Shown piece after piece: positions 1-8,457 of a DNA stretch of 64,000 nucleotides. Made by a program: the position numbers and the translations under genes. The notes under the pieces are model-generated. The model searched no databases and had not been told where the DNA came from. It saw only the letters and a list, made by a program, of their open reading frames with translations. Positions within the stretch are counted from its first letter, which is position 1. The number at the start of each line of letters is the position of its first letter. This stretch comes from Mycobacterium sp. (lineage in GTDB: Bacteria; Actinomycetota; Actinomycetes; Mycobacteriales; Mycobacteriaceae), in contig NZ_JAICZA010000001.1 in NCBI RefSeq assembly GCF_025933915.1, positions 18,807-82,806 on the forward strand. The letters are read 5' to 3'.

Positions 1-1
1 C

Positions 2-1495
2 CGAATTGCCGTGCTCGACGCCGTGGGCGGTACCGGCTTCAGTTATGCGGACCTCGACGCCCAGGCTAACCGCGCCGCCGGTGGACTAAGGGCGGCGGGC
101 ATCGCGGCGGGCGACCGGGTGCTGCTGCAGCTGCCGAACCGCTGCCAGTTCGCGGTGGCGCTGTTCGGCCTGCTGCGGGCCGGCGCGATTCCGGTGATGT
201 GCCTGCCGGGCCATCGGGCCGCCGAACTCGGGCATTTCGCCGCGGTCAGCCAGGCCACCGGGCTGCTGATCGCCGATACGGCAGCGGGTTTCGACTACCG
301 GACGATGGCGCACCGGCTCGTCGAGGAACACGGGGCGCTCGAGCACGTCATCGTCGACGGCGACCCGGGGCCGTTCACCTCATGGGCGCACCTGTGCGAG
401 CAGGCGCCCGCAGACCCGCCGCCGGCGCCCGGCGACCCGGGATCGCCTGCGCTGCTTCTGGTTTCCGGCGGCACCACCGGCACGCCCAAGCTCATCCCCC
501 GCACCCACGCCGATTACGTATTCAACGCAACCGCCAGCGCCGAACTCTGCCGGCTCACCTCCGACGACGTCTACCTGGCGGTGCTGTCGGCGGGCCACAA
601 TTTTCCACTCGCCTGCCCCGGCCTGCTCGGCGCGATGACGGTCGGCGCCACCACCGTGTTCGGCACCGATCCCAGCCCCGAGGCGGCCTTTGCCGCCATC
701 GCACGCCACGGCGTCACGGTCACCGCCCTGGTGCCGGCCCTGGCCAAACTGTGGGCGCAGGCCTGCGAATGGGAACCGGTGACCCCAAAGACCTTGCGGC
801 TCCTGCAAGTCGGCGGAGCCAAGCTGGAGCCCGAGGACGCCCGGTTGGTGCGCACCGCCTTGACGCCGGGCCTGCAGCAAGTGTTCGGGATGGCCGAGGG
901 GCTGCTGAACTACACCAGGCTCGATGATCCACCGCACCTCACCGAGCACACGCAGGGGCGGCCGTTGTCCGCCGCCGATGAACTGCGCGTGGTCGATACG
1001 ACCGGTGAGCCGGTGCCGCCCGGCGACGAGGGCGAATTGCTGGTCCGCGGACCGTACACGTTCAACGGCTACTTCCGCGCCGAGCGCGACAATGAGCGCT
1101 GCTTTGACCCCGACGGCTTCTTTCGCAGCGGTGACCTGGTCCGGATCGGGGACGACGGCTACGTCGTGGTCACCGGCCGCGTCAAAGACGTGATCTGCCG
1201 TGGCGGCGAAACCATTTCCGCGGCAGACCTCGAGGAGCAGATGCACAGCCACCCGGCGATCTTCTCGGCCGCCGCGGTAGCACTGCCCGACCCATATCTT
1301 GGTGAGAAGATCTGTGCGGCAGTTGTTTTCAAAGACAAGGGGCTGTCGCTTGCGGAATTGAACGTCTATCTCGACGAGCGCGGCGTGGCCGCGCACGCCC
1401 GGCCCGATGTCCTGGTGACGATGACATCGCTACCCACCACGCCGATCGGCAAGATCGACAAAAAGGCGATCGCCGGCCAGGTTTCGGCGCGATAG
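2..1495 (+). CDS. mbtA: Salicyl-AMP ligase (mycobactin biosynthesis), 5' end cut by window edge
   Basis: AMP-ligase core LLLVSGGTTGTPKLIPRTH, GEGELLVRGPYTFNGYF, PTTPIGKIDKKAI; very close to remembered MbtA sequence; frame is open to the window edge. Confidence 0.93.
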   Translation, partial: RIAVLDAVGGTGFSYADLDAQANRAAGGLRAAGIAAGDRVLLQLPNRCQFAVALFGLLRAGAIPVMCLPGHRAAELGHFAAVSQATGLLIADTAAGFDYRTMAHRLVEEHGALEHVIVDGDPGPFTSWAHLCEQAPADPPPAPGDPGSPALLLVSGGTTGTPKLIPRTHADYVFNATASAELCRLTSDDVYLAVLSAGHNFPLACPGLLGAMTVGATTVFGTDPSPEAAFAAIARHGVTVTALVPALAKLWAQACEWEPVTPKTLRLLQVGGAKLEPEDARLVRTALTPGLQQVFGMAEGLLNYTRLDDPPHLTEHTQGRPLSAADELRVVDTTGEPVPPGDEGELLVRGPYTFNGYFRAERDNERCFDPDGFFRSGDLVRIGDDGYVVVTGRVKDVICRGGETISAADLEEQMHSHPAIFSAAAVALPDPYLGEKICAAVVFKDKGLSLAELNVYLDERGVAAHARPDVLVTMTSLPTTPIGKIDKKAIAGQVSAR

Positions 1496-1523
1496 CCGCG
1501 ACCCGGTGCGCGGGCTGCCCGGA

Positions 1524-2582
1524 TCAGCCCATCGCCGCATGGAGCTCCGCCAGCAAGCCGGCGGTGGTTCCGAAGTCCATGCATTCATCGGTGACGGATT
1601 GGCCGTATGTCAGCTCGCCGCTCAGCGATTGGGCGCCGGCCACCAGGAAGCTTTCCAGCATCAGGCCGGCGATACCGCGCTCGCCCGCCGCGATGCGTGC
1701 GGCCACCTCGGCCGCGACCTCGGCCTGTCGCCCGTGGTCTTTGCCGGAGTTGGCGTGTGAGCAGTCGATCATGACTCGTTCGGAAAGCCCTGCCCTGCCT
1801 AACCACTCGATGGCCGTGACCACCGAGGCGGCATCGTAATTCGGGCCGGCGGTACCGCCCCGGAGGATCACGTGGCAGTCGGGATTGCCCATGGTCTCGA
1901 CGACGGCCGCGCGGCCCACGTTGTCGGTTCCGAAGAAATGGTGAGGCGCCGCTGAGGCTTTGACACCGTCGATGGCGACTTGGATGTTGCCGTCGGTCCC
2001 GTTCTTGAATCCGATCGGCATCGACAGCCCGGATGCCAACTGGCGGTGCACCTGTGATTCGGTGGTCCGGGCGCCGATGGCGCCCCAGGCAACCGCGTCG
2101 GCGATGTACTGCGGGCTGGTGGGCTCCAAGAATTCGCACCCCACGGGCAGGCCGACGTCGATGATGTCGAGCAGTAACGCGCGCGCGGTGCGGATGCCAC
2201 GTTCGACGTCGAAGCTGCCATCCATGGCGGGGTCGTTGATGAGACCCTTCCACCCGATGGTGGTGCGCGGCTTTTCGAAGTAGACCCGCATCACGACCTT
2301 CAGCCGTTCCGCGTACTCGGCGGCAAGCGCGGCGAGCCGGCGGCCGTAATCGAGTGCGGCGACGGGATCGTGTACCGAGCAGGGGCCGACCACGAGGAGC
2401 AGCCGGTCGTCGTGGCCGGCCAGGATTGCCGAAACCTCATCGCGGTCGCGCTGGACGGCCTGGGCGCGTCGAGGCGTCAGCGGCAGTTCGGTTCGAATCA
2501 CGGCGGGAGCCGAGAGCTCTCGGAACGAGACGATCCGATGATCGGACGTGTCGACAGTTGTGGGGAAGTCGGTGAGGGACAT
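1524..2582 (-). CDS. aroG: 3-deoxy-7-phosphoheptulonate synthase, type I (AroF/G/H class)
   Basis: VGPCSVHDPVAALDYGRRL, RVYFEKPRTTIGWKGLINDP, ARTTESQVHRQLASGLSMPIGFKNGTDG, DCSHANSGKDH. Confidence 0.95.
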   Translation of the reverse strand: MSLTDFPTTVDTSDHRIVSFRELSAPAVIRTELPLTPRRAQAVQRDRDEVSAILAGHDDRLLLVVGPCSVHDPVAALDYGRRLAALAAEYAERLKVVMRVYFEKPRTTIGWKGLINDPAMDGSFDVERGIRTARALLLDIIDVGLPVGCEFLEPTSPQYIADAVAWGAIGARTTESQVHRQLASGLSMPIGFKNGTDGNIQVAIDGVKASAAPHHFFGTDNVGRAAVVETMGNPDCHVILRGGTAGPNYDAASVVTAIEWLGRAGLSERVMIDCSHANSGKDHGRQAEVAAEVAARIAAGERGIAGLMLESFLVAGAQSLSGELTYGQSVTDECMDFGTTAGLLAELHAAMG

Positions 2583-2640
2583 GTGGGTGTGTCTTTCTGT
2601 GTTAGCTGCCAGGGCACGCCCGCTGGTTCCCGATGCCCTG

Positions 2641-2674
2641 AAAAGCGAAAAGCAGCGACCTTGCGGTCACTGCT
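2641..2674 (-). terminator. Terminator-like hairpin in aroG leader (putative attenuator)
   Basis: minus strand AGCAGTGACC-GCAA-GGTCGCTGCT followed by TTTTCGCTTTT; 10-bp stem with one G.U/mismatch position, GNRA-type loop. Confidence 0.8.
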
Positions 2675-2703
2675 GGGCTCCGGGTCTCAGTCGTGCGGGT
2701 GCG

Positions 2704-2790
2704 TCAACCAGACGCCCCATCGCCGGCTCCGCCCGGAGCCACGATAAAGCGCCAATACGCGCGCACGCCGATGTTCACGTCGGCGAACAT
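2704..2790 (-). CDS. Putative 28-aa aromatic leader peptide MFADVNIGVRAYWRFIVAPGGAGDGASG
   Basis: ORF directly upstream of the hairpin; TAT-TGG-CGC-TTT (Tyr-Trp-Arg-Phe) codon cluster upstream of a DAHP synthase gene; no clear Shine-Dalgarno. Confidence 0.65.
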   Translation of the reverse strand: MFADVNIGVRAYWRFIVAPGGAGDGASG

Positions 2791-2929
2791 ACCACGCGGG
2801 GCAGGGGTCCGAACTTCTGGATCAGTGACGGGCGGGACGCCCTGTCTTGTCAGCGCCTGCGCGTGGCCGGCACTCTTCCCCGGTCAGCGGCATAGGTCCG
2901 CGTGCGCGACGTCTCCTGGCGGCCGGTGT

Positions 2930-4588
2930 TCACTGGCTCGCTGGGGCGGCGTATTTCGGAAGCCAACGCACCCCGGCGATGCGCTCGGCGAGTTCCGCGC
3001 CGCTGCGCGTCGGGGCGACGCCGTCCGCAACCGCCTGCACGGCGACGGCGTGCGCAATGCGGACCGCGACATCGGGCACGTCTGACCACGCGGGCAGCAA
3101 CGGCTGGTCGGGGTCGGCGAGGGCGGGCGACGCCTCACCCAAGGTCTCCGCGGCGATCCGCATCATCTCGTCGGTGACCCGGGTCGCCTGGGCCGCGGTC
3201 ACGGCCAGTCCCATCGCGGGAAAGATATAGACGTTATTACATTGGGCGACAGGGTGTTCCACGCCGTTTCGGTGCAGCGGGGCGAACGGCGATCCGGTGG
3301 CGATCAGGGCGCGTCCGTCGGTCCACCGATCCAACTCGGCGGGGTGCGCCTCGGCGCGACTGGTCGGGTTGGAGAGCGGGAAGATGATCGGTCGGTCGGC
3401 CTTGCCGGCGAGTTCACGCACGACGGGTTCGGTGAAGGCGCCCGCGGCGGTGGACAGGCCCAGCAGCACGCCGACGTCGACATGGTGGATGACGTCGGCG
3501 AGCCGGGCCGGACCGGACAGACCCCAGCCCGCAACACGGCCGGCGGGCTGGGCGAATCCCCGCTGCGCGTCGGATAGGTCGGTGCGGTCCTCCGTGAGAA
3601 GCCCTTCCACGTCGAGAACCCAGATCCGCTCCGAGGCAGCCTGTTCGGATAACCCCTCGTTCACCATTTGGCGACGGATCATGTCGAGCACTCCGATGCC
3701 GGCCGAGCCGGCGCCGAGCATGACGACCTGCTGCTGGGACAACGGGCGGCCCGCAACCTTGGCGGCACCGTGCAGCGCGCCGACGGCGACGGCGGCGGTG
3801 CCCTGGATGTCGTCGTTGAAGGTAAGGAGTTTGTCGCGGTAGCGGGCGAGGATCGGCAACGCATGTGTGCTGGCGAAGTCCTCCCACTGCAGCAACACGG
3901 TGGGTAGGTGCTTGCGCACCGTGGCGACGAACTTGTCGATGAACGCGTAGTAATCGTCGTCGTCGATACGTCGGTGCCGCCAGCCCAGATAGCGAGGGTC
4001 ATCGAGCAGTTCGCTGTTGTCGGTTCCCACATCGAGCACGATCGGAAGAGTCCGAGCGGGGTCGATGCCACCGATCAGGGTGTAGAGGGACAGCTTTCCG
4101 ATCGGGATGCCCATGCCCCCGATGCCCTGATCGCCCAGGCCGAGGATCCGCTGCCCATCGGTCACCACGATCACGTCGACCTCGCGTTGGGACCGATTGT
4201 TCAGCACCTCGTCCAGGCAGTCCCGCTCGGCGTAGGACACGAACAGTCCCCGCGGCCGACGGTAGATCTCGCTGAAACGCTGGCAGGCTTCTCCCACGGT
4301 GGGCGTGTAGACGATCGGCAGAGTCTCGGCGATGTGGTCGAGTAACACGCGGTAGAACAAGGTTTCGTTGCGGTCCTGCAACGCCCGCAGATAGATGTGC
4401 TTGTCGAGATCGCTGCGGCGAGTGGAGAATTCGTGCCAGCAATGCTCGGCTTGCTGTTCGAGGGTCTTCACCGTGGTCGGCAGCAGACCGGTCAGACCCA
4501 ACCGCCGGCGTTCGTCCTCGGTGAAGGCGGTGCCTTTGGTGGTCAAGGCATCGAACAGCCTGGCCGGCCCCCGGAGTTCATCAGGCAT
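2930..4588 (-). CDS. mez: NAD-dependent malic enzyme
   Basis: YTPTVGEACQRFSEIYRRPRGLFVSY, VVTDGQRILGLGDQGIGGMGIPIGKLSLYTLIGGIDP, FNDDIQGTAAV, GAGSAGIG. Confidence 0.95.
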   Translation of the reverse strand: MPDELRGPARLFDALTTKGTAFTEDERRRLGLTGLLPTTVKTLEQQAEHCWHEFSTRRSDLDKHIYLRALQDRNETLFYRVLLDHIAETLPIVYTPTVGEACQRFSEIYRRPRGLFVSYAERDCLDEVLNNRSQREVDVIVVTDGQRILGLGDQGIGGMGIPIGKLSLYTLIGGIDPARTLPIVLDVGTDNSELLDDPRYLGWRHRRIDDDDYYAFIDKFVATVRKHLPTVLLQWEDFASTHALPILARYRDKLLTFNDDIQGTAAVAVGALHGAAKVAGRPLSQQQVVMLGAGSAGIGVLDMIRRQMVNEGLSEQAASERIWVLDVEGLLTEDRTDLSDAQRGFAQPAGRVAGWGLSGPARLADVIHHVDVGVLLGLSTAAGAFTEPVVRELAGKADRPIIFPLSNPTSRAEAHPAELDRWTDGRALIATGSPFAPLHRNGVEHPVAQCNNVYIFPAMGLAVTAAQATRVTDEMMRIAAETLGEASPALADPDQPLLPAWSDVPDVAVRIAHAVAVQAVADGVAPTRSGAELAERIAGVRWLPKYAAPASQ

Positions 4589-5388
4589 CGTCGACGTCCC
4601 TTCTGTACGAGGCCCGCGGTGTGGGGAACGATGTGATGTCCAGATCGTCGTCGGCCATCGCGGGCGCTGTGTCTGCGTAACCCGGTGTCAATGCGCTGTC
4701 AATGGCGAGCCCGATTCACGGTTGGTCGCAGTTTGCTGCCAGCGCCGGGGATCCGACCGAATTCGGTGCGCAGCTTCGTATTGTTAGGAGCGTGTGACGC
4801 AGTGCCGCCCCGCTTTTGGTGATGGTTTGGAAGTTTGCCCGAATCATCGGTGCAAGAAAGGTTCGGCTGACACTATTCCAATACGGGCGGAGATCACGAT
4901 ATGGTAACCGAGGCGCCGTTTCGGCAGGCCCGGCATGTCATGGCTGGCCTCGCCGAGACAGCGCCACTCTGTGGGTGGGAATCGACAGATTGGGTCATCG
5001 CGTCGAGATAAGTGCTTGTTCCAACTGTAGTTCTGTGTTGATCGCGCGCGATTTGACTGACTCCCCGTCGTCGACTACCTCACACAGGCACACGATGTGT
5101 TGTCAGAAGTTCCTGGGGATTGCTCAGCGCGAGAGGGGAATTCTATGATTCCGCCGCGCGCGCGCCGGCGAGTCATCTCCTTGCCCCCCGGGACAACATG
5201 CGGGCCGCCCATTCGAACCACGGTGAACTCAACCTCGCACGCGCATTCGCCGACACGTCCGGCGATAACACGCTCGCCAGGCCCGCGCGGCGGGACTCCG
5301 CGGGCACTCAACTCGGCCAGCAACTTATGCGCGGTGCCGTTAAGGTCATCCGGACTGGCGTCACGAGCTGACTGACGAAAGGTAGCGC

Positions 5389-6780
5389 ATGTTCTTGGGC
5401 ACGGTTGAGGACTGGACGGCCGAGGGCACCGTCGTATCCTGGTACCCCACCGCGACCACCTATCGGCGCGTAGCCGAAGCGCAATACCACCCGGCCCCGG
5501 TGAGTTATCAGCAGTCGCAGCATCTTCGGTATTACCAGCGCCAGGTCAGCCGTGGCCGCGACATCCCGCGGTTGTGCATCGGGGCCTGGGAAATCAGCGG
5601 CATCTGCGATATCGATGCGATGACGCACGCCGTGAATAGGCACCTGCGGCGACACGACACCTACCACGACCGGTTTGGCTTCGGCGACGACGACGAAATC
5701 CTTCGCTACGTCATTGCCGATCCGGAGGGCATCACGTTGGCGCCAACGGATCTCGGAAGGATGGCCCCGCCCCAGATTCGCAAACTCCTTCTCGACACGC
5801 CCGATCCGCTGCAATGGGACTGCTTCACCTTCGGAGTGATCCAGGCCGATGACCGGTTCACCGTCTACATCGCTGTTGACCACTTGCGCGCCGATGGTAT
5901 GTCGGCCGGGGTGATCTTCCTCGACATCCAGACGATGTATTTCGCCGCGCTGCAGCGCGAACAGAGCCCGTTGACACCCGCTGCCAGCCATCGCGAATAC
6001 AGCGCGAATCAGCATGCGTACACCAGGAGTCTGAGCGAAGAATCGCCCGAGATCCGTTCGTGGCGGGACTTTCTCGCAGCGAACAACGGCGTGCTGCCGA
6101 AATTTCCGCTGGAGCTGGGCGAGGCAGCCGCGGATACCCCGGGGGCCATCGACGTGTTCGACCTGATCGATGACGACCAGGGCCGACGGTTCGAAGCGGC
6201 TTGCCGCGCTGCGGGGGCACGTTTCAGCGGTGGTGTGTTCGCCTGTGCCGCCCTGGCCGAACATCGACTGACCGGCGCCCCAACATATTTCGGGCTTACA
6301 CCGTTCGACAACCGTCGCGACCCCGCCCACGCGACCGCGGTCGGATGGTTGGCCAGTTTCGTCCCGTTGGCGATTCCTACGGCCGGCGCGTCGTTCGACG
6401 AGGTGGTCAGTGCCGCCCAGGCATCGTTTGACGCGAACACCGCCCTCGGCGCCGTGCCGTACTACCACCTGCTCGAGTCGCCCGACCGTTGGTCGGGCCT
6501 CATCGAGGTTCCCGACCGTCCGGTCCCGATGCTGTCCTACATCGACATTCGCAAGCTGCCCTTCGGTGGCTATTTCGACGGTCTGCGCGCAGGTGTCTGG
6601 GGTGACAACCGGCTGTCGGAGACGGTGTGCATGTGGGTCAATCGCATGCACGACAAAACGCAGCTGGTGGTCGCCTACCCGGGCACCGACATCGCCCGCG
6701 GGTCCGTCCTGCGCTACGTCGAGACGATGCGCGCCGAGTTCACCCGGGTGTCCGACGCCGGGCCGCTCCTGGATGCCTGA
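5389..6780 (+). CDS. PapA-like polyketide/trehalose-lipid associated acyltransferase (condensation-domain fold)
   Basis: DHLRADGMSAG (HxxxDG) and overall resemblance to PapA1/PapA3 proteins. Confidence 0.75.
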   Translation: MFLGTVEDWTAEGTVVSWYPTATTYRRVAEAQYHPAPVSYQQSQHLRYYQRQVSRGRDIPRLCIGAWEISGICDIDAMTHAVNRHLRRHDTYHDRFGFGDDDEILRYVIADPEGITLAPTDLGRMAPPQIRKLLLDTPDPLQWDCFTFGVIQADDRFTVYIAVDHLRADGMSAGVIFLDIQTMYFAALQREQSPLTPAASHREYSANQHAYTRSLSEESPEIRSWRDFLAANNGVLPKFPLELGEAAADTPGAIDVFDLIDDDQGRRFEAACRAAGARFSGGVFACAALAEHRLTGAPTYFGLTPFDNRRDPAHATAVGWLASFVPLAIPTAGASFDEVVSAAQASFDANTALGAVPYYHLLESPDRWSGLIEVPDRPVPMLSYIDIRKLPFGGYFDGLRAGVWGDNRLSETVCMWVNRMHDKTQLVVAYPGTDIARGSVLRYVETMRAEFTRVSDAGPLLDA

Positions 6781-6810
6781 CGAAGTTCCCGCCCCGCCGG
6801 GGGGCCGGAG

Positions 6811-8457
6811 ATGAGTGCCCTGGTGGCACTCACCCTTCGCACGATGTCAGGCTCCCGGCGCGATGCCGACCTCCTGTTCGCGGCGTTGGCGCCGGTGGGC
6901 TGCTTCCTGGGATTCACCGTGGTGTTGGGCAGCCTGATCCACACCGGCCCGATGACCTACCCGCAATATGTCCTTCCGGTGGTGATCGTGCAGGCGATGC
7001 TGTTCGGGGCGATGACCACCGCCGACCGCGCCGCACGAGACCGACTGTCCGGCTTCGGGTCTCGGCTCCGGACTCTGCCGGTTCCTGCGGCGGTACCGCT
7101 GGCCTCGCGGATGCTCTATTGCTTGATACGCTCGGTCATCGCGCTGGTCGCCGCTCTCGCCGTCGGGTGGTCCTTTGGCTTCCGGATGGCCGGCGGCCCG
7201 GCCGACACGGGCCTGTTCGTGATCATCGTCGTGGCGTTCGCGATGGCGGTGTGCCTTGGCGCCGACGCGTTGGGCTCCCGGGTCGGCTCCGTCGAATCGT
7301 CGAGCCAATTGCTGCTCCTCCCGCAGCTGGTCCTGGTCCTGGTGTCCACGGGCATCGCTCCAGCGGAATCATTTCCGGCATGGCTCGGCCCGTTCGTCCG
7401 CCACCAGCCGGTCTCACGGGTCACCGACACGTTGCGTGGACTCGCCGCCGGTCACGCCACCGGTAGGGAGCTGGTGGCGGCATCGGCGTGGTGCCTTGGA
7501 CTGTTGGCACTTTTCGGCGCTCTGGCGGTGCGGATGCAGCGACGCGTGGGCGGCGGAAGCTTCCGCGCACCTGGGATCGTCCGCAGTCCGCCTCACGACG
7601 GCCGGCAAGCTCGCGACGCGCCTGCGGAACAGCCCCGAGGGGCGGTGACTGCCCATGCAACACAGGGGATTCCGTATGATCCGTCGCTGACGGCGTTCGT
7701 CAGCCAGAGCGCTTCGGAAGCGGGGCGGCTGCTGCGCCGCTGGCGGCGCGACCCGATCGTCGCCGTGCAAGCGCTGTTGTTCCCGACGTTTCTGCTCGTC
7801 GTCTACAAATTGCTGATCGGCAAAGCCGTTCTGGCCGTCACGGGCCACGACAGCCTATACGGGCTGGTCCCGATGTGTGCGGTGGTCGGCGCCGTGTTCG
7901 GAACCCTCGGCGCCGGTTTGGCGTTGCCGGCGGAGCGGGAGTCGGGTGTGCTGACGAGGTTGTGGGTGCAGCCGGTTCATCGAGCCAGCACCGTGGCGGG
8001 CCGACTGGTCGCCGAGGCCGCCCGGACCACCACGTCCGCCATCGTGCTCACCATCTTCGGGATCGCATTGGGCCTGCGATTCAGCTACGGCTGGATCGCG
8101 GTGCCTGCCTTCGTGCTGGTGCCCGTGGCGATTTCGGCGGGAATGGCGTCGTTGGTCATCGCGATCGCCGCCCGCGCGGACGGCAAGGCGATGGTGACCT
8201 GGCTGGGCGCGGGATGCGTCCTGCTGCTGTTCCTCAACACCGGCGTCGCACCCGCCGAGGTGTTCCCGGGCTGGCTGCAACCGGTGGTGCGTTTTTCGCC
8301 CATATCGCCGACGATCGAGGCGATGCGCGGCCTCGCGGAGGGCGGCCCGGTGCTGTCGCCGCTGTGGCAGGCGGGCGTGTGGGCCGGCGTTCTCGTCGCG
8401 GTGTTCGCACCGGCGGCGGTGCGCGGGTATCGCGCCGCGGCCGAGGCGGGATGCTAG
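6811..8457 (+). CDS. ABC-2 type permease, two membrane modules fused (DrrB-DrrC-like)
   Basis: two homologous 6-TM halves, each with an LP..V.R.......P.......L.G motif (APAESFPAWLGPFVRHQPVSRVTDTLRGLAAG and APAEVFPGWLQPVVRFSPISPTIEAMRGLAEG). Confidence 0.85.
   Translation: MSALVALTLRTMSGSRRDADLLFAALAPVGCFLGFTVVLGSLIHTGPMTYPQYVLPVVIVQAMLFGAMTTADRAARDRLSGFGSRLRTLPVPAAVPLASRMLYCLIRSVIALVAALAVGWSFGFRMAGGPADTGLFVIIVVAFAMAVCLGADALGSRVGSVESSSQLLLLPQLVLVLVSTGIAPAESFPAWLGPFVRHQPVSRVTDTLRGLAAGHATGRELVAASAWCLGLLALFGALAVRMQRRVGGGSFRAPGIVRSPPHDGRQARDAPAEQPRGAVTAHATQGIPYDPSLTAFVSQSASEAGRLLRRWRRDPIVAVQALLFPTFLLVVYKLLIGKAVLAVTGHDSLYGLVPMCAVVGAVFGTLGAGLALPAERESGVLTRLWVQPVHRASTVAGRLVAEAARTTTSAIVLTIFGIALGLRFSYGWIAVPAFVLVPVAISAGMASLVIAIAARADGKAMVTWLGAGCVLLLFLNTGVAPAEVFPGWLQPVVRFSPISPTIEAMRGLAEGGPVLSPLWQAGVWAGVLVAVFAPAAVRGYRAAAEAGC

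Follow-up and report, generated by a model that had tools for sequence, protein, structure and literature searches.

In the enterobacterial trp and phe attenuators (trpL and pheL), a leader ORF supplies the regulatory codons, a protector hairpin holds these codons, an intrinsic terminator follows, and an alternative helix forms depending on where the ribosome stalls. A closer relative of the element considered here is aroR, reportedly described by Neshat et al. in 2014 as the attenuator of Corynebacterium glutamicum aroF. It consists of an F-Y-F leader upstream of aroF (PMC4046766, PMC11802643, PMC7356990), through which the gene is derepressed under phenylalanine limitation, with tyrosine having no effect (PMC11802643). 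Elsewhere in the Actinobacteria, trp attenuators and the leader peptides of ilvB and cys genes were surveyed by Seliverstov et al. (2005; PMC1262725). For phenylalanine/tyrosine operons they reported no conserved RNA structures, and aroF, aroG, and DAHP are not mentioned in their paper.

Here, we analyzed a 64,000-nt stretch of DNA from a Mycobacterium sp. (the window), in which the type I DAHP synthase gene, aroG, lies on the minus strand. A preliminary description, made from the sequence alone, had proposed that aroG is controlled by a ribosome-mediated attenuator. All of the elements that it named were found on the minus strand within 2583-2791 (Table 1): an ORF (2704-2790) containing TAT-TGG-CGC-TTT, a hairpin AGCAGTGACC-GCAA-GGTCGCTGCT followed by TTTTCGCTTTT, and the three pairing segments GGCTCCGGG, GGAGCC and CCCGGAGCC. 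The interpretation is also supported, with the corrections given below, as leader ORF and hairpin are conserved and helix B and terminator T covary. We therefore consider it likely that the element acts on the type I DAHP synthase gene as a ribosome-mediated attenuator; its anatomy, its conservation, and the covariation of B, T, and E were observed directly. The arrangement is more than a chance occurrence: when folded, as had been suggested, the leader proved 3 s.d. more stable than shuffled sequences, and type I aroG, which is found in 57 of 149 congeneric genomes, is preceded by the leader in 57/57 cases.

Table 1. Features of the aroG leader region in the window
Feature	Coordinates	Strand	Evidence
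-10 box TATGTT (TANNNT), 7 nt before GTG	2786..2791	-	read from sequence; spacing in 154 leaders
Leader ORF, leaderless GTG start, (V/M)NIGVRAYWRFIVAPGGAGDGASG*	2704..2778	-	GTG in 60/60 mycobacterial leaders
Sensor codons TAT TGG CGC TTT (Tyr-Trp-Arg-Phe)	2746..2757	-	fixed positions in 60 mycobacterial leaders
5′ arm of lower stem of extended hairpin A*, holding Arg and Phe codons	2742..2751	-	fold centroid; codons:C3 z 3.8; covariation
B5/A5, 5′ arm of helix B and of local hairpin A (GGCTCCGGG)	2732..2740	-	covariation and arm-swap tests
A3 (GGAGCC), 3′ arm of local hairpin A	2725..2730	-	85% of cells paired; covariation weak
C3, 3′ arm of lower stem of A*	2713..2722	-	fold centroid, segment scan, covariation
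B3, 3′ arm of helix B, alternative partner of D5 in helix E (CCCGGAGCC)	2676..2684	-	covariation and swap tests
T, terminator hairpin, base 1 nt from B3 (AGCAGTGACC-GCAA-GGTCGCTGCT)	2651..2674	-	98% of cells paired; 7 of 8 pairs covary
U-rich tract TTTTCGCTTTT, first T shared with hairpin end	2641..2651	-	sequence; T enrichment over 116 leaders
D5 (GGGCATCGGG), pairs with B3 (helix E) or D3 (hairpin D)	2629..2638	-	E 0/3000, D 0/3000; E z 5.1, D z 2.3
D3 (TGCCCTG), 3′ arm of hairpin D	2610..2616	-	arm-swap test over all leaders
AGAAAGA, weak Shine-Dalgarno of aroG, not detectably sequestered in class 1	2592..2598	-	masking, local fold
aroG, type I DAHP synthase, regulated gene	1524..2582	-	TIGR00034, 501 bits

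The plus-strand gene convergent with aroG (window 11-1495) encodes an mbtA-like salicyl/dihydroxybenzoyl-AMP ligase, and siderophore synthesis draws on chorismate. The same genome also encodes a type II DAHP synthase (PF01474; G000:C126:25389-26669, locus L240), and this second gene has no aroG-type leader in front of it.

The start of the leader ORF had to be revised. The ATG at 2790, from which the ORF had originally been read, falls within the TATGTT that forms a TANNNT -10 box and is probably outside the transcript, while the GTG at 2778-2776 stands 7 nt past this box and is likely to be the true, leaderless start. Among 154 annotated leaders, the gap between TANNNT and the start is 6-8 nt in 153 and 7 nt in 123 (the background rate of a box so placed is 0.4%); as starts were picked with a loose TANNNT requirement, it is the tight spacing alone that constitutes independent evidence. 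In close relatives, the sequence diverges upstream of the -10 box and the leader itself is conserved. The transcript is thus probably leaderless and would not need a ribosome-binding site. The preliminary description was correct that no clear site is visible, but the leaderless GTG would account for this, and it no longer counts as a weakness. Nor was any TANNNT box found on the minus strand between the hairpin and the aroG ATG.

As in trp-type attenuators, the ORF is short and carries codons for end products of the pathway. Their positions relative to B5 are nearly invariant in 60 mycobacterial leaders: Tyr at +17 (58 leaders), Trp at +14 (58), Arg at +11 (59), and Phe at +8 (59). Congeneric aroG leaders encode YWRF with single substitutions only (HWRF, YRRF, MWRF); those of other genera carry aromatic runs, and the final aromatic codon lies +8/+9 before B5 in most groups. 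TAT and TTT are indeed uncommon, as had been expected, amounting to 24% of the Tyr and 17% of the Phe codons in the 38 ORFs of the window. Despite this minority status, mycobacterial leaders have TAT in 55/59 and TTT in 60/62 cases.

The secondary structure was evaluated in an alignment of 53 leaders of the class to which the window belongs (class 1). Helices B and T together showed 107 two-sided changed cells versus 28 in shuffled alignments (0/500), and 90.6% of cells were paired versus 79.6% in shuffles (0/500); the covariation counts for B are underestimates, since the multiple alignment misplaced the Micromonospora-like B by 3 columns. The segment following the aromatic codons had been proposed to pair either with GGAGCC (hairpin A) or with B3 (helix B), and both pairings exceed shuffles, hairpin A less strongly than B or T. 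This segment is, in addition, the top of a longer hairpin, A*, which contains the codons and thereby provides the protector hairpin of a trp-type attenuator; the lower stem of A* covaries (0/500 shuffles), yet only 63% of its cells are paired.

Two further analyses addressed the helices. Swap tests, in which a leader's own pairing energy is compared with that of arms exchanged between families, are independent of any single alignment and gave 0/3000 for B, E, and D, 10/3000 for D3:SD, and 43/3000 for helix C. When every pair of segments in class 1 was scanned, T ranked first (z 10.2), followed by B (6.7), E (5.1), and codons:C3 (3.8). Helix E was unexpected, in that B3 has a second deeply conserved partner near 2629-2638; as this partner lies downstream of T, helix E could form only once T has been passed. 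Helix C, which would join the beginning of the ORF to the stop region, was a weak candidate (290/3000 in class 1, against 43/3000 for all leaders) and was mostly replaced by A*.

An intrinsic terminator between leader ORF and gene, as in trp-type attenuators, is present as a predicted element, and T covaries; across 116 leaders, the two positions directly past the hairpin have T fractions of 0.87 and 0.71, respectively. What the element lacks is an antiterminator that shares bases with the terminator. The outer end of B lies 0 or +1 nt from the base of T in 83 of the 116 leaders, and B and T overlap in just 17, by 1-4 nt. It had been noted as a weak point that the alternative pairing abuts the terminator, and this feature is genuine, as the abutment recurs in nearly every lineage. 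The exhaustive scan of class 1 revealed no segment pair that would compete with an arm of T; the candidates B5:T5, C3:T5, and C3:T3 scored z of 1.1, -1.7, and -0.1, respectively.

Based on this anatomy, we propose the following mechanism. Transcription would begin at the GTG, and a ribosome would load at once. When Tyr- or Trp-tRNA, and perhaps Phe-tRNA, is short, the ribosome would be parked on TAT-TGG-CGC-TTT, thereby blocking A* and freeing B5, so that B5 could pair with B3 and helix B would come to lie directly against the base of T. Because the base of T would have to close inside the exit channel of RNA polymerase, this rigid abutting helix would hinder T, and the polymerase would continue into aroG. 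When aminoacyl-tRNAs are plentiful, the ribosome would cross B5 to the stop codon and hairpin A would re-form; B would not be made in time, and T would end transcription. That starvation raises, rather than lowers, expression is presumed by analogy with C. glutamicum aroR. Because B and T do not overlap and no competitor of the T arms was found, the proposed switching from B to T has to be argued on steric grounds.

Folding of the window leader with a 12-nt ribosome footprint is consistent with the induced state. The probability of B was 0.00 without a ribosome (E, 0.88), and rose to 0.95 and 0.99 with the A-site stalled at Tyr and Trp, respectively; with Phe in the A site, the strict 12-nt footprint weakened B to 0.06. 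When the group values are averaged, B withstands stalls at +14 or farther upstream, and its loss falls between +8 and +5. A helix beginning at the +8/+9 codon distance would be just allowed by the ribosomal helicase site. A stall at Phe is compatible with the proposed switch only if the helix may reach this site, in which case Phe may be counted among the sensed amino acids. The uninduced state is attributed to kinetics and sterics, because equilibrium folding retains B when the ribosome occupies the stop codon (0.81 over groups, in a model that does not include a ribosome filling the B loop). Even without a ribosome, equilibrium folding favored B in several groups (0.75 over groups).

The leader in the window therefore resembles trpL and pheL in its regulatory codons, protector hairpin, terminator, and stall-dependent alternative helix. 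Unlike them, it has a leaderless start, three different aromatic amino acids within one codon run, and an alternative helix that abuts, rather than overlaps, the terminator and has an extra conserved partner downstream of it. With the systems surveyed in PMC1262725 it shares the use of leader peptides and attenuators in Actinobacteria.

The likeness to aroR is closer. Locus L247, which contains the aroR upstream primer sequence of PMC7356990, has the layout TAAGGT, ATG, RFYF, and B adjoining T, and is one of 21 among 24 Corynebacterium aroG loci with an aromatic leader ORF. Judged by sequence, the C. glutamicum aroR attenuator belongs to the same family as the element in the window: both have a type I DAHP synthase downstream, an aromatic leader peptide, and a B-like helix abutting a T-like terminator, and in L247 the TANNNT box lies 8 nt before the start, which leaves no room for a Shine-Dalgarno (SD) sequence. 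They differ in that the window has a GTG start and a GC-rich leader, and in their codons, which are R-F-Y-F in aroR (Phe +14, Tyr +11) and Y-W-R-F in the window (Trp +14, Tyr +17, Phe +8). Of two Corynebacterium leaders inspected for helix E, which is conserved in the window's class, one does not show it clearly. Under the strict footprint, the Corynebacterium positions would fit the reported response to Phe only. This kind of attenuator is accordingly already known from C. glutamicum aroR, and the element in the window is a widespread new variant.

Both leader ORF and hairpin are conserved before orthologous aroG genes across mycobacteria, a comparison on which the original proposal had been staked. 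Beyond the genus sample, ~100 further actinobacterial leaders carry the element, and the same plan is found in Williamsia, Gordonia, Tsukamurella, Dietzia, Streptomyces, Glycomyces, Catellatospora, Paractinoplanes, Kribbella, Isoptericola, and others (part of the group labels for leaders were assigned in this analysis). A covariance model of B and T identified a single place in the window's own genome (E 5.6e-18), with no further copies there (second match, E 6.6). In a 150-genome sample of the order, 17/17 significant matches were directly upstream of type I aroG, and the listed congeners without aroG gave no matches. The element is absent from Rfam: Rfam 15 yielded no leader match in window 1-8000 at E<=1, and none at gathering score in 11 loci of diverse lineages. 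No recognizable leader was found before the close type I aroG orthologues of one actinobacterial family (L211-L224, L226, L227), or before the type I genes of a 44%-identity group (L195-L197).

A second class of leaders (class 2; Nocardia, Rhodococcus, and Pseudonocardiaceae type, with YFWF) keeps B and E, and T is absent. In 34 such leaders, local folds around the aroG SD have a mean z of -1.57 and mostly form an SD-enclosing hairpin; in class 1 groups the corresponding z lies between -1.6 and 1.1, with an average near zero. Class 2 thus resembles the erm-type translational attenuators, where stall-controlled helices end in a hairpin around the SD of the gene under control, although erm-type systems respond to antibiotic arrest whereas class 2 would sense codons and tRNAs; the window leader lacks an SD hairpin. 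In a protein tree, class 2 is monophyletic (100/99) and lies closest to class 1 members (Paractinoplanes, Kribbella). This suggests a single loss of T and the gain of an SD hairpin in class 2, the direction of change being read from the midpoint root of a tree that omits Corynebacterium. The output of class 2 is probably translational, and one sensor apparently serves two outputs across the classes. A broader reading, which we find plausible but hold tentatively, is that of a phylum-wide aromatic switch with one core (leaderless codons, B, and E), whose output, either an abutted terminator (class 1) or an SD-sequestering hairpin (class 2), was exchanged once. If true, an intrinsic terminator would here be controlled in a novel manner, through antitermination by a helix that abuts it.

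The structure of class 2 also bears on a different account of class 1, in which helices B, E, D, and S gate the aroG SD and T is a side feature: with B formed, D would form and leave the SD free, and with E formed, D3 would pair with the SD. The conservation of E and D, the D3:SD swap test over all leaders, and the SD-enclosing hairpins of T-less class 2 all speak for it. We nevertheless consider it unlikely for the window, as SD pairing was unsupported by the unbiased scan of the window's class (z -1.4 and 0.6), masking D5 made the SD less accessible in just 4 of the 19 groups, class 1 is generally without an SD-enclosing hairpin, and the SD in the window is weak and predicted to be about half open in every state. 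The S helix and D3:SD were consequently rejected for this class on the basis of masking, the unbiased scan, and the local fold.

Conservation of the peptide YWRF..APGGA in most class 1 leaders would be expected if, as in TnaC, a nascent peptide (YWRFIxAPGGA) sensed free aromatic amino acids and arrested its own ribosome. We regard this as very improbable, given that leaders with YRRF, HWRF, MWRF, YQRF, WYAYF, RFYF, and YFWF occur, and that L048 has a natural nonsense leader in which TAG immediately follows YWRFI and the RNA further downstream, including that for APGGA, is nonetheless conserved. As the RNA past its stop codon stays conserved, comparison of the sequences indicates that RNA, not peptide, is under selection there, and APGGA would reflect hairpin A and helix B; in L048, the terminating ribosome would cover B5. 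Least credible of all is that T is the terminator of the upstream gene, or the leader constitutive, with a coincidental aromatic ORF: a malic enzyme gene on the same strand does end ~140 nt before the -10 box, but leader and hairpins accompany aroG irrespective of the preceding sequence (tRNA-like in L010; unrelated as far as the -10 box in L002), the aromatic codons hold fixed positions in nearly all leaders, and the covariance model matches only before aroG, so that codon conservation and aroG specificity refute it.

Attenuation at the entry to aromatic synthesis, documented in C. glutamicum, is now seen before type I aroG of many actinobacteria, including a mycobacterium whose second, type II enzyme gene is without the element. 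The attenuator reading allows two kinds of output, transcriptional and translational, to be compared in nature on a single sensor; it also yields a rule for where the codons lie with respect to the switching helix, and a system in which to ask if a helix that merely touches a terminator can disarm it. Outside the Actinobacteria, type I aroG of the betaproteobacteria Bordetella, Acidovorax, and one other (L117, L123, and L132) is preceded by aromatic-rich leader ORFs (FYFYFYGF, FYFWFYF, and FAFYFWF), followed by a terminator-like hairpin, and these are possibly an independent aromatic attenuator.
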